Shown here one piece after another: positions 30,973 to 58,411 of a DNA stretch of 64,000 nt. Within the stretch, counting starts at the first letter, position 1. The number at the start of each line of letters is the position of its first letter. Below the pieces are notes generated by a model. It made no database searches. It had not been told where the DNA came from and saw nothing but the letters and a program-made list of their open reading frames with translations. Location of the stretch: positions 186,001-250,000 of the forward strand of contig NZ_AP018254.1 of NCBI RefSeq assembly GCF_002368395.1. The letters run 5' to 3'. Source of the stretch: Calothrix sp. NIES-3974 (lineage in GTDB: Bacteria > Cyanobacteriota > Cyanobacteriia > Cyanobacteriales > Nostocaceae). Position numbers and translations under genes: made by a program.

Positions 30973-31207
30973 TTCCCTCGCACCCATGCTCCGCGTGGGT
31001 GCGGAACCTACGAGGTTCCGACCTCGTGAATGAAGGCAGTAGACCTCGTTAACTGAGTGACTACCCAGAGCATAGTCACTAGATATATATCAAGTTTCCC
31101 TCGCACCCATGCTCCGCGTGGGTGCGGAACCTACGAGGTTCTGACCTCGTGAATGAAGGCAGTAGACCTCGCTGACTGAGTGACCACCCAGAGCATAGTC
31201 ACTAGAT
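30973..31207. repeat. Multi-hairpin repeat, two tandem copies (period 123 bp)
   Basis: Each copy holds three hairpins in order: CACCCATGC/GCGTGGGTG, ACGAGGT/ACCTCGT, and GTGACTA/TAGTCAC (copy 2 has GTGACCA in the last). The copies start at 30973 and 31096 and are nearly identical; copy 2 has TTCT for TTCC in the second loop. A related copy is at 32998-33122 and a derived one at 52530-52770. Confidence 0.85.
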
Positions 31208-31322: not shown

Positions 31323-32711
31323 TCACCCAAACTTGGTCAAACATAGTTGGCGAAAATCGTCACCACGGACTTCAAAATTAGGATACTGGTCAAAACTCGC
31401 ACATGCAGGCGACAATAACACAGACTTGGCTTGGTATTTTTGAGCCAAATCACCCGCCATATCCACTGCCTTAGCCATTGTCCCCACATCCAGATAGTTG
31501 TGATAACCGATACTTGCCAATCGTTGACCGAAATATGGGGCTGCATTGCCAATTAACAATACATAGGCGGCTTTTGCTTGAATCTCGGCTAACCAAGCTG
31601 TGTCTTCCCCTTCCTTGGCTTCTCCACCAGCAATCAGTATAACTGGTGCAGCAACGGATTTTAATCCGACTTCGGCTGCATCGTAATTAGTCGCCTTACT
31701 ATCATTAATGAACTGAATACCTGACCAAGTACAAATCAACTCTACCCGGTGGGGTACACCCGGAAATTCACTGATAGCTTGATGAATCGCGTCCGATTCT
31801 ATACCAGCTAATCGGGCGGCGGCGACTGCCATGAGGAGATTTTGCAGGTTGTGTGTACCAACCATTTTTAAGGCGGAACTGGGAATAATTCTGATTGATG
31901 AGGATTGGGGAGTGAGTTTTTCCATGACCCAACCGTCTTCAAGATAAAAGCCTCGATGACCGATTAATTCTTTCTCGCCCTTGACACTTGTCCAGTAGGC
32001 ATTTTCCCACTGACTCAAACCTACTTGCCGCAGGTATAGGTCATCACCATTAAATATTTGTAGCTCTGATTTGTGGAGAAGTTTTGCTTTGATATTGTAG
32101 TAGTTTTCTAAAGTTTTGTGACGAGCTAAGTGATCGGGGGTGAAGGTTGTCCAAATCCCGATTCGCGGAGATAGGGTGGAAGATGACTCGCTTTGATAAC
32201 TACTAATTTCGGCGATGACCCAATCGAGGGGTAGGGTATGGTCTCCAGCCTGGGCAGATGCAAGGGCGACCTCGGTAGCTGCATAGCCGATATTACCACA
32301 ACTAGGAGCATTCAAACCGGCGGTTTGAAAGATGGCTGCAACTAGGGATGTGGTGGTGGTTTTACCATTAGTTCCGGTAATTCCCACCCAGGGAACGGTA
32401 TTCAGGTTACGCCAAGCCAGTTCCATTTCCCCTATGGTTTCGATTCCTTGGTTGCGGGCTTGGACAAGGACGGGTATGTCCCAAGGGACACCGGGACTGA
32501 CGACGATTAGTTGGGGGTCCTGTTCGCCATCTAGTTGCAGGGAATACCCTAATTTAACGGTAATATTTTCGGCTGCAAGTTCCTGTTGGAGATGGAGGAG
32601 GTCTGGGGAGGTTTTGGTATCGCCAATTTCCACCTCCCAACCTTCTCGTTTCAACAACCTGGCCGCAGCCACACCGGACTTACCTAATCCGATTACATGA
32701 GCTTTGGACAT
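31323..32711 (-). CDS. murD: UDP-N-acetylmuramoyl-L-alanine--D-glutamate ligase
   Basis: 462 aa, usual length. It adds D-glutamate to UDP-MurNAc-L-Ala in cytoplasmic peptidoglycan precursor synthesis. Seen: an N-terminal Rossmann start ([15 protein letters not shown]), the ATP loop [15 protein letters not shown], the Mur ligase HNxxN motif ([16 protein letters not shown]), [12 protein letters not shown] and NDSKATN, and [11 protein letters not shown] near the end, all typical of MurD. No other mur gene is next to it. Confidence 0.96.
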
Positions 32712-33396
32712 GGAGTGTAAGCAGAGATTCCCTGGTTAAGCTTTTTTATAGTAGCGCTTATTTGCTATTTACGCACATCTTTTTTTTACATTTTCTACGC
32801 AATTGGGGAAATGGATAATCGGGAAAGTAATACCGTTTGCATTTTGGGTTGATACCTGATGGGGAGCTTTCGGGAGCAGGGGAAGAAAATGTATCAAAAT
32901 TTGAGGGAAATGGTGTAACTGTATGTTAATCCTGACCCATCTATACGACAGTGCTAGTTATTGTTTGGGTATTTGACTAGTACAAGTCGGCGGAAATACG
33001 CCTACCATTTCCCTAGCTCCCATGCTCCGCGTGGGAGTCCAAGAGTGTGAGGCTCCAGCCTCGTGAATGAAGGCAGAGCCTTCATTCACTGGGTGACTAC
33101 GCAGAGCATAGTCACCAGATAAATGGTATGGATATTTCCGCCAACCCGTACTAGGTATTGCACGCAATCACAAAACCCTGTTATAAGATTGCGATCGCAT
33201 TTCTGGTGACCCCCATCGCGATTCCAGAGATGTGAATAACTGTGACAATAGGGAACGGTTCATGCTGCGATCCACAAAATTGAAAGATTTGTGTTGATGT
33301 CGGTAGATGGGTTTATTGTGTCCATGATGATGAATTATGATAGATTTTCCTTAAAACCGTATTAAAACTCCGAAAATAATCAGGATATATATCATC
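32712..33396. other. Divergent intergenic region murD-pdxH with structured repeat
   Basis: 685 nt. The main content is the 178-bp inverted-repeat element at 32977-33154. The rest must carry the promoters of murD and pdxH; I see no gene. Confidence 0.65.
32977..33154. mobile_element. 178-bp element: multi-hairpin repeat closed by 34-bp inverted ends
   Basis: The ends are 32977-33010 and 33121-33154. They match as inverted repeats at 28 of 34 positions (both begin CTAGTAC and end ACCATTT). Inside are four hairpins: CTCCCATGC/GCGTGGGAG, GAGGCT/AGCCTC, TGAATGAAGGC/GCCTTCATTCA (perfect 11 bp) and GTGACTA/TAGTCAC. Relative to the copies at 30973, hairpin 1 has changed on both sides while keeping pairing. 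It may be a MITE or a source of structured RNA. It has no coding capacity. Confidence 0.75.
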
Positions 33397-34041
33397 ATGG
33401 ATAAAGCGATCGCAGACCTGCGTAAAGACTATAGCTTGCAAGGGTTAGCTGAGACCGATGTGGATGCAAATCCGTTTGTCCAGTTTCGACGTTGGTTTGC
33501 AGCTGCACAGGATGCCAAAATTATCGAACCGAACGCGATGACGCTTGCAACCTCGACTCCAGATGGTAAACCATCTGCTCGCATTGTTTTACTCAAGGAT
33601 TTTGATGAACGGGGATTCGTTTTTTTTACCAATTACACTAGCCAAAAAGGACAGGAGTTAGCTGAAAATCCCCAAGCATCCCTCGTATTTTGGTGGGCAG
33701 AGATTGAACGTCAAGTACGTATTTCTGGACATGTGGAAAAGGTTTCTGAGTCAGAATCAGATGCCTATTTCCACAGCCGTCCTGTGAATAGTCGTCTTGG
33801 TGCTTGGGTGTCCCAGCAAAGTCAAGTTATCCCGAATCGAGAAGTTTTGGAAACTAAATTTCAAGAGTTACAAATTCAATATCAAAATCAAGAAATACCC
33901 CGTCCTCCCCATTGGGGGGGATTACGTGTTATTCCTGCCGAAATTGAATTTTGGCAAGGAAGACCGAGCCGTTTACATGACCGTTTATTATACAAACATG
34001 TGAGCGATCGCACTTGGGAAATTTACCGTTTATCACCTTAA
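33397..34041 (+). CDS. pdxH: Pyridoxamine 5'-phosphate oxidase
   Basis: 214 aa. This FMN enzyme oxidises PNP/PMP to PLP, the last step of vitamin B6 salvage. The family run is present from the N-terminal helix ([10 protein letters not shown]) through [20 protein letters not shown] (FMN-binding), [17 protein letters not shown] and the C-terminal signature [13 protein letters not shown]. Length and motifs are complete. Monocistronic. Confidence 0.96.
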
Positions 34042-50986: not shown

Positions 50987-52483
50987 ATGAAAAAGCGTCA
51001 AAAATTTGCAAAAATGAGATTAAAATCTGTAATCTGTGCTTTCCTCTTGACCTTGAGTTTACTATTTGTCGGACTCGATTGGTCACAAGCAGCGACACCG
51101 AATGCAGCGAAACATTATACGGAGTTGGAATTACCACCTTTACCAGAAGTTAAACTACCTGCATATGAAAAATTCCGGTTAAAAAATGGGATGACGGTGT
51201 ATTTATTGCCCGACCGGGAGTTACCATTAATTACGGGGACAGCGATGATCCGCACCGGTGAAAGATTAGAACCTGGCGATCGCACTGGGTTAGCGAAGTT
51301 GGTGGGTACGGTGATGCGTACTGGGGGAACTAAAAAACATACTGGGGATGAGTTGAACCAGTTGTTGGAACAACGTGCAGCATCGGTGGAAACCAGTATG
51401 AATGAAAGTATGGGAACAGCCAGTTTCCAAAGTTTGACGGAGGATATTGACACCGTACTGGGTTTATTTGCGGAAATTTTGCGGGAACCGGTATTTGCAG
51501 AAGACAAATTGGAGCTAGCTAAAACCCAAGAAAAAGGACAAATTACCCGTCGCAATGACAATCCCGACGCGATCGCCAGACGAGAGTTTCGCAAGTTAAT
51601 CTATGGCAAAAATAGTCCCTACGCACGGACAACCGAAATTGCGACCATCGATAAAATTAGCCGTGATGACCTAATTAAGTTTTATCAGCAGTATTATTAC
51701 CCCAACAACATGATTTTAGGGGTGACAGGGGATTTTGAACCCGCCAAAATGAAGAATTTAATCCAAGCAAAATTTGCAGATTGGCGACCCACCCCTAAAC
51801 CAATTAAACCCCAACTACCCCCAGTTTCCCAAGCAAATCTAGGGGGAGTATTTTTCGTCGATCAACCCCAGTTAACCCAAAGTAATATCCTCATTGGTCA
51901 TCTCGGTGGTCAATTTAACAGTCCCGACTATCCTGCATTAGATGTGATGACCAGTGTCTTGAACGGTTTCGGAGGGAGATTATTTAACGAATTGCGATCG
52001 CGTCAAGGTTTAGCCTATTCTGTATACGGTGTTTGGAGTCCCCGTCACGACTATCCAGGTCTGTTTATCGCTGGTGGACAAACCCGTTCCGATGCAACTG
52101 TCCAATTTATTCAAGCTCTCAAAGCCGAAATTAAACGCTTGCAAACCGAACCCGTTAGTGACAGGGAACTAAAACTTGCGAAGGAATCAACTTTAAATTC
52201 CTTTGTCTTTAACTTTGAAAATCCCCTGCAAGTCCTCACCCGGATTATGCGGTATGCTTATTTCGGTTATCCAGAAGATTTCCTCTTCCGTTACCGCGAA
52301 AAAGTTGAAACCACCACCGCAGCAGATATCCAAACAGTTGCCAAAAAATACCTCAAACCAGATAACCTGGTGACACTGGTAGTTGGTAATCAAACTGCAA
52401 TTAAACCCCCTTTAACCCAAATTGCTAACCAAGTTACCCCCATTGATGTCACCATACCGGGAATCAAACCACCCACCAGTTAG
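50987..52483 (+). CDS. M16 peptidase homologue, non-catalytic subunit type
   Basis: 498 aa with a signal or anchor (about 16-35). The fold runs as in M16 proteins (GLAKLVGTVMRTGGTKKH at the zinc position, so HxxEH is replaced) and ends with the Arg/Tyr-type region (RSRQGLAYSVYGVWSPRHDY), which in such subunits contacts the substrate. It is the partner of the catalytic gene upstream, as in other bacterial M16B heterodimers. Confidence 0.9.
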   Translation: MKKRQKFAKMRLKSVICAFLLTLSLLFVGLDWSQAATPNAAKHYTELELPPLPEVKLPAYEKFRLKNGMTVYLLPDRELPLITGTAMIRTGERLEPGDRTGLAKLVGTVMRTGGTKKHTGDELNQLLEQRAASVETSMNESMGTASFQSLTEDIDTVLGLFAEILREPVFAEDKLELAKTQEKGQITRRNDNPDAIARREFRKLIYGKNSPYARTTEIATIDKISRDDLIKFYQQYYYPNNMILGVTGDFEPAKMKNLIQAKFADWRPTPKPIKPQLPPVSQANLGGVFFVDQPQLTQSNILIGHLGGQFNSPDYPALDVMTSVLNGFGGRLFNELRSRQGLAYSVYGVWSPRHDYPGLFIAGGQTRSDATVQFIQALKAEIKRLQTEPVSDRELKLAKESTLNSFVFNFENPLQVLTRIMRYAYFGYPEDFLFRYREKVETTTAADIQTVAKKYLKPDNLVTLVVGNQTAIKPPLTQIANQVTPIDVTIPGIKPPTS

Positions 52484-52529
52484 CCTATTTCCCGTCTTCA
52501 ATAAGTGGTTTATGCGTAAATACACTTAC

Positions 52530-52754
52530 CTTTTCCCTCGCACCCATCGCCGACCTTTCCCCTCGCACCATGCTCTGCGTGGGTGCAGAATCTCCCTCGC
52601 ACCCATCGCCGACCTTTTCCCTCGCACCATGCTCTGCGTGGGTGCAGAATCTAATCTCTCTCGCACCCATCGCCGACCTTTTCCCTCGCACCCATGCTCT
52701 GCGTGGGTGCAGAATCTACGAGGTTCTGACCTCGTGAATGAAGGCAGAGCCTTC
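52530..52754. repeat. Degenerate multi-hairpin repeat, about three 60-bp units
   Basis: Three units of the form CTCGCACCCATCGCCGACC, then TCGCACCATGCTCTGCG and TGGGTGCAGAATCT. They are truncated relatives of the multi-hairpin repeat at 30973. The third unit continues into ACGAGGTTCTGACCTCGT and TGAATGAAGGCAGAGCCTTC, i.e. hairpins 2 and 3. Confidence 0.75.
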
Positions 52755-52935
52755 GCTAACTAAGTGACCACCCAGAGCCTAGTCACTAGATAATAAAACT
52801 TGCTAACTGAGTAACCACCCAGAGCCTAGTCACTAGATAATAAAACTTGCTAACTGAGTAACCACCCAGAGCCTAGTCATTAGATAATAAAACTCCCTGA
52901 CTGAGTAACCACCCAAAGCGTAGTCACTAGATAAA
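52755..52935. repeat. 47-bp tandem array, about four units
   Basis: Units start near 52755, 52802, 52849 and 52896, each with GCTAACTGAGTAACC and CCCAGAGCCTAGTCACTAG. Each unit contains the TGACCA/TAGTCA-type hairpin of the larger repeat. There are no spacers, so it is not a CRISPR. Confidence 0.85.
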
Positions 52936-58105: not shown

Positions 58106-58411
58106 CTGTGCTTCTACCAAAACCAATTTCTAGTTATTCAGTTTGACCAAGGCTCGTTCCACAAAATAAAAACTCTTGATTGTCCAGAAAATATTATCCC
58201 TATTTTTCAACCACCCCATTCTCCAGAACTAAACCAAATTGAGAGATTTTGGGAATTTCTGAAGAGCAAACTCCAATGGGAAAATTGTAAAACTCTTGCC
58301 CAACTGCGTCAAAAATTAGATGAGATTTTAGAAACTATAACCCCAGAAATAATTCCTTCTCTCACCTCTGATGAATTCATTTTTGAAGCTTTATTTAGCG
58401 CAGCTTCATAA
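58106..58411 (+). pseudogene. IS630-type transposase remnant (C-terminal)
   Basis: The open frame from 58106 to the TAA at 58411 encodes QFDQGSFHK, FQPPHSPELNQIERFWEFLK and a normal end. This is the DDE transposase C-terminus of IS630/Tc1 elements, with the second Asp and the Glu (IER). The stop at 58103-58105 and non-matching DNA further left mean that the N-terminal half is lost. No IS ends are seen, so the element is dead. Confidence 0.85.

Follow-up and report, generated by a model that had tools for sequence, protein, structure and literature searches.

A probable IS630-derived MITE with an embedded four-hairpin repeat in the murD-pdxH intergenic region of Calothrix sp. NIES-3974

Within the 64,000-nucleotide stretch of Calothrix sp. 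NIES-3974 DNA analysed here (the window), the intergenic region between the divergent genes for a murD-like ligase (31323-32711, minus strand) and a pdxH-like pyridoxamine phosphate oxidase (33397-34041, plus strand) holds a 178-bp element (Table 1) that is very probably an IS630-derived MITE (IS630/Tc1-mariner group) with a captured REP/BIME-like hairpin cluster inside. It belongs to a known kind of mobile DNA and is no new RNA gene. The initial annotation had named both a MITE and a non-coding RNA gene as candidates, and the MITE suggestion is borne out by the copies, the terminal inverted repeats (TIRs), the clean empty sites found for sibling copies and an IS630-family element with matching ends in relatives. 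As is typical of MITEs, the element is short, non-coding (its 178 bp contain no ORF of at least 80 aa and thus have no coding capacity), bounded by TIRs and dispersed in copies with common ends. A search for it in plasmid and phage records returned no match.

Table 1. Features of the element and further core copies, in window coordinates
Feature	Position	Strand	Basis or remark
Whole MITE copy including the CTAG target at both ends	32977..33154	.	Same ends in BLAST copies; sibling copies with empty sites
Left TIR (arm)	32977..33010	+	28/34 against right arm; 97% match to arm of coreless 103-bp MITE in genome G007
Right TIR (arm)	33121..33154	-	Same kind of end on IS630 elements
Core, independent four-hairpin repeat, imperfect inverted repeat	33011..33120	+	nhmmer detection on both strands; sharp borders with and without arms
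Hairpin 1	33017..33037	+	Tip ATGCTCCGCGT; conserved T-G wobble
Hairpin 2	33049..33062	+	
Hairpin 3	33063..33089	+	AGA loop; TCT (inverted) in otherwise near-identical copy G000:3281838
Hairpin 4	33092..33116	-	Tip as hairpin 1 but in minus-strand reading
Armless core copy	30975..31084	+	
Armless core copy	31098..31207	+	In tandem with the 30975..31084 copy; single core here in sister
Armless core copy	52683..52791	+	In hairpin-fragment array (about 52514-52840)

BLAST searches of the host genome (5.99 Mb, a single contig) with the element and its flanks gave 54 matches at E<=0.001, many of them with both ends, the best full-length match being 98% identical to the element, and related elements number about 50. 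TIR-like sites, sought with a 20-base pattern allowing up to 3 mismatches, occur 122 times (58 + 64), versus 4 times (3 + 1) for the reversed pattern that served as control. Neighbouring convergent end pairs enclose roughly 108-248 bp, and three main types can be told apart: type A of about 178 bp, to which the window element belongs, type B of 185 bp and type C of about 195 bp. Eight type B copies are intact by a strict pattern, with 0-9 differences in pairwise comparison, and because the closest of these 185-bp copies are only 0-2 bases apart, the spread is recent. Most end pairs read CTAG...CTAG, the remainder being one- or two-base variants; the ends of the element are exact to the base, as other copies show element plus target in this same form. 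At one host locus (L003, G000:3510845-3511529) left arm and core together form a four-copy tandem array whose period is about 169 bp. Three host copies that are one-armed or armless on one side (L105, L119, L122) have the outside flank TTTAAAAACCTCC beside the TIR in common, which points to a possible larger repeated unit; in L105 this flank recurs downstream.

The joined flanks of several host copies were searched in the sister genome (G001, a Calothrix MAG), and for three of them (4284606, 3217699 and 449393) we found clean empty sites with exactly one CTAG each, where the host has CTAG-element-CTAG, so the target duplication that had been proposed as a check is seen in these sibling copies. 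A single CTAG in the sister means that the host gained the CTAG-element unit or that the sister lost it precisely; under gain and precise loss alike, arms and core move as one unit. The window copy is absent from the murD-pdxH intergenic region of the sister as well, at an empty site that is not clean, about 10 flanking bases being different there. The duplicated unit would be the central TA inside CTAG (left 32978-32979, right 33152-33153), with a 4-bp CTAG duplication as the alternative: TA within CTAG fits all the data, which are also compatible with the 4-bp duplication, and for some copies whose outer bases are unequal (3584314; L054 in G029) TA requires no extra mutations. Insertion at TA with TA duplication has been described for the IS630-family element ISY100 of Synechocystis (PMC2170065), to which we liken the present element by mechanism only, not by end sequence.

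The same kind of ends also bounds repeated 1326-1329-bp units in relatives, where the TIR pairs recur at even spacing. Autonomous IS630-family elements of 1326-1332 bp were found in G029, in G033 and on a plasmid of Calothrix sp. PCC 7716 (1332 bp, its ends of the same kind), flanked on both sides by ends of the CTAGTACA....CGGCGKAARTA type. These 1.33-kb units encode a 418-aa protein, in a single intact frame in L136, and this transposase matches NF033545 of NCBIfam (IS630, E 9e-58) and PF13358 of Pfam (DDE_3, E 8e-33). Its named relatives are plasmid-borne, in Brasilonema octagenarum and Calothrix sp. PCC 7716. In the sibling 185-bp type, the right arm matches an IS end at 91% over 35 bp. 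Coreless MITEs exist too, among them the 103-bp one whose left 34 bases resemble the left arm (Table 1), and matching arm sequence is also present on CALJJQ010000037.1, labelled 'uncultured Calothrix sp.'. With the 1.33-kb elements the window element shares inverted ends of the CTAGTACA....CGGCGGAAATA type and the TA/CTAG target; unlike them it is a MITE without a transposase gene, 178 bp rather than 1.33 kb long, with hairpins in its interior.

We infer that the element is moved by an IS630 transposase: supplied in trans, the DDE enzyme encoded by an IS630-family element would bind at both inverted ends (CTAGTACARGTYGGCGGAAATA...), excise the element and reinsert it at the TA inside CTAG, so that CTAG stands on both sides. 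The 110-bp four-hairpin cluster, a separate repeat family inside the MITE lineage, presumably entered by insertion and would then have multiplied along with the MITE. Neither host nor sister has a close relative of that transposase, the best host match being one of 31% that is confined to residues 52-175, and an abundant host IS630 (at least 22 copies) was rejected as mobiliser on account of its ends, which read TACAGC.. and not CTAGTAC. With no close transposase in the host and different ends on the host IS630, the mobilising enzyme is now missing or not recognised, and it was probably lost or supplied transiently. The host loci L067-L088 hold 22 nearly identical copies of an IS630-family element about 1020 bp long, which has TACAGC ends and two reading frames. 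An IS630-type (DDE_3) transposase fragment (33.8 bits), probably a remnant, lies in the window at 58115-58306.

The core also occurs outside the MITE. Across 1.0 Mb of host sequence, a 110-bp nhmmer model placed it at 96 positions, of which 70 are nearly full-length matches. Among these 70 full cores, a sample biased to armed copies because the stretches were chosen around TIR sites, both arms were present on 30, one arm on 20 (right only 12, left only 8) and none on 20, so that copies with and without the outer ends, for which a search had been suggested, both exist. The core borders are sharp and equal in all arm classes (TTTCCCT.. and ..CTAGAT), and as every full core was matched on both strands by its own HMM, the core is an imperfect inverted repeat. 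The tandem pair of armless cores in the window corresponds to one core in the sister, and tandem change therefore also occurs. Core fragments and hairpins form an array at 52514-52840, downstream of an ORF ending at 52483. Another genus, represented by genome G010, has two armless cores (L033, L044).

Arms and hairpins were found as the initial annotation had described them: the two 34-bp inverted ends agree at 28 of 34 positions, the six mismatches include four transitions that become G-U when the minus strand is read, and the four hairpins lie between the arms (Table 1). Folded as RNA, both strands are far more stable than shuffled sequences (plus strand, -93.7 kcal/mol, z -10.98; minus strand, -110.1 kcal/mol, z -13.39; 0/200 shuffles as good in either case), and with DNA parameters z is -9.4 and -11.4. 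The plus-strand G-U pair that had been noted in hairpin 1 is real, its T-G pair being present in 57/66 distinct copies, but as a pointer to the strand it is offset by hairpin 4, which mirrors it in the opposite orientation with a C-A pair in 61/66. Read on the plus and minus strand, respectively, hairpins 1 and 4 have an identical tip (ATGCTCYGCGT) and an identical wobble pair, a T·G-wobble tip shared in opposite orientation because the core is an imperfect inverted repeat; this orientation is also why no strand could be assigned before. Across copies, G-T outnumbers A-C by 71 to 13 cells in hairpin 1, whereas in hairpin 4 the ratio is 14 to 116, favouring G-T on the minus strand, and the wobble pairs imply neither strand as the transcribed one. 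Paired changes exceed shuffles in hairpin 1 and in hairpin 4 (0/500 each, a count that is not a probability because the copies are related); these two were counted individually, since the length of hairpins 2 and 3 varies. The palindromes are thus maintained, which DNA-level processes can do as well as RNA selection.

That the element is instead a non-coding RNA gene, with a transcript made of a long stem and a four-hairpin head, would agree with its very stable folding and with the stems of hairpins 1 and 4, which keep pairing through double changes beyond shuffles. However, DNA palindromes keep pairing too, no Rfam family was found within the element, promoter-like matches nearby are at the shuffled level and lie outside it, and it has no terminator-like site. 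Since the copy is also absent from this locus in the sister and the opposite wobbles favour neither strand, a known family, a conserved locus and one favoured strand, the marks of a structured non-coding RNA, are all missing, and we consider this reading, which the initial annotation had entertained, highly improbable. Still less credible is the idea that the arms are two unrelated repeats that by chance inserted on either side of the hairpins, which had been raised for the case that other copies always lack them: one-armed copies do exist, but 30/70 sampled full cores lie between two arms in inverted orientation, and the whole unit was inserted as one piece at the three empty sites, which refutes it.

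A mobile core, by contrast, would add to the explanation as an IS630-derived MITE and is not an alternative to it. We regard it as a tentative reading, somewhat short of an even chance, that the core inserted into the MITE as a palindromic element with a mobility of its own, either REPIN/BIME-like or dependent on an IS200/IS605-type or RAYT enzyme. The 20/70 sampled full cores that are armless, with the same sharp borders and unrelated flanks, the armless copies in another genus and the arrangement of the hairpins as inverted pairs argue for it, and an inverted palindrome pair in many copies is what is expected of a REPIN or BIME. On the other side, no clean empty site was found for armless or one-armed cores, at least one case is explained by tandem copy-number change, and no host Y1_Tnp gene has a core within 1.5 kb, so that the linked RAYT gene of a REPIN is missing in that range and a Y1/RAYT transposase was rejected as the mover of the core. 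A MITE of G029 (L036, L046) whose ends are of the same kind has a different hairpin pair, GCGAGCATCTTGCTCGC, after ACCATT, the position that the core occupies in the Calothrix MITE. That unrelated palindromic repeats recurrently land in, or are carried by, the MITE centre, the core being mobile alone as well as riding the MITE, is possible and a shade more doubtful than the mobility of the core itself.

IS630-derived MITEs are already known, and only the nested hairpin cluster is less ordinary. Nezha, a cyanobacterial MITE for which ISNpu3-like elements have been proposed as movers (Zhou et al. 2008, via PMC3049150), is likewise small and believed to depend on an IS acting in trans for its movement; the comparison is by description, not sequence, and the description in PMC3049150 mentions no separate internal hairpin cluster. 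RUP of Streptococcus pneumoniae, an IS630-derived MITE of about 107 bp with IS630-Spn1 ends (PMC3049150), resembles the element in its IS630-type ends and strong folding and differs in sequence and host, and no embedded repeat is described for it in that source. The core alone, in its dispersed inverted hairpin pairs with and without neighbours, is like REP/BIME/REPIN and the very small mobile repeats known from cyanobacteria (Elhai et al. 2008, cited in PMC3733652), from which it differs in that no linked RAYT gene was found and no match to the GTAG/CGTC tag established. Short palindromic repeats could spread through cyanobacterial genomes by a nested route, riding inside an IS630-type MITE; elements of this basic kind are well known, but the nesting and the inverted loops of the hairpins should be useful to specialists.

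The loop of hairpin 3 is inverted between the window (33075-33077) and the copies L002 (G000:3281838-3282015) and L043 (G001), reading GGCAGAGCC versus GGCTCTGCC, as would arise from template switching or cruciform inversion in otherwise near-identical copies. In G029, the spacer between the two hairpins is inverted between L036 and L046 (AGACAAAC versus GTTTGTCT).
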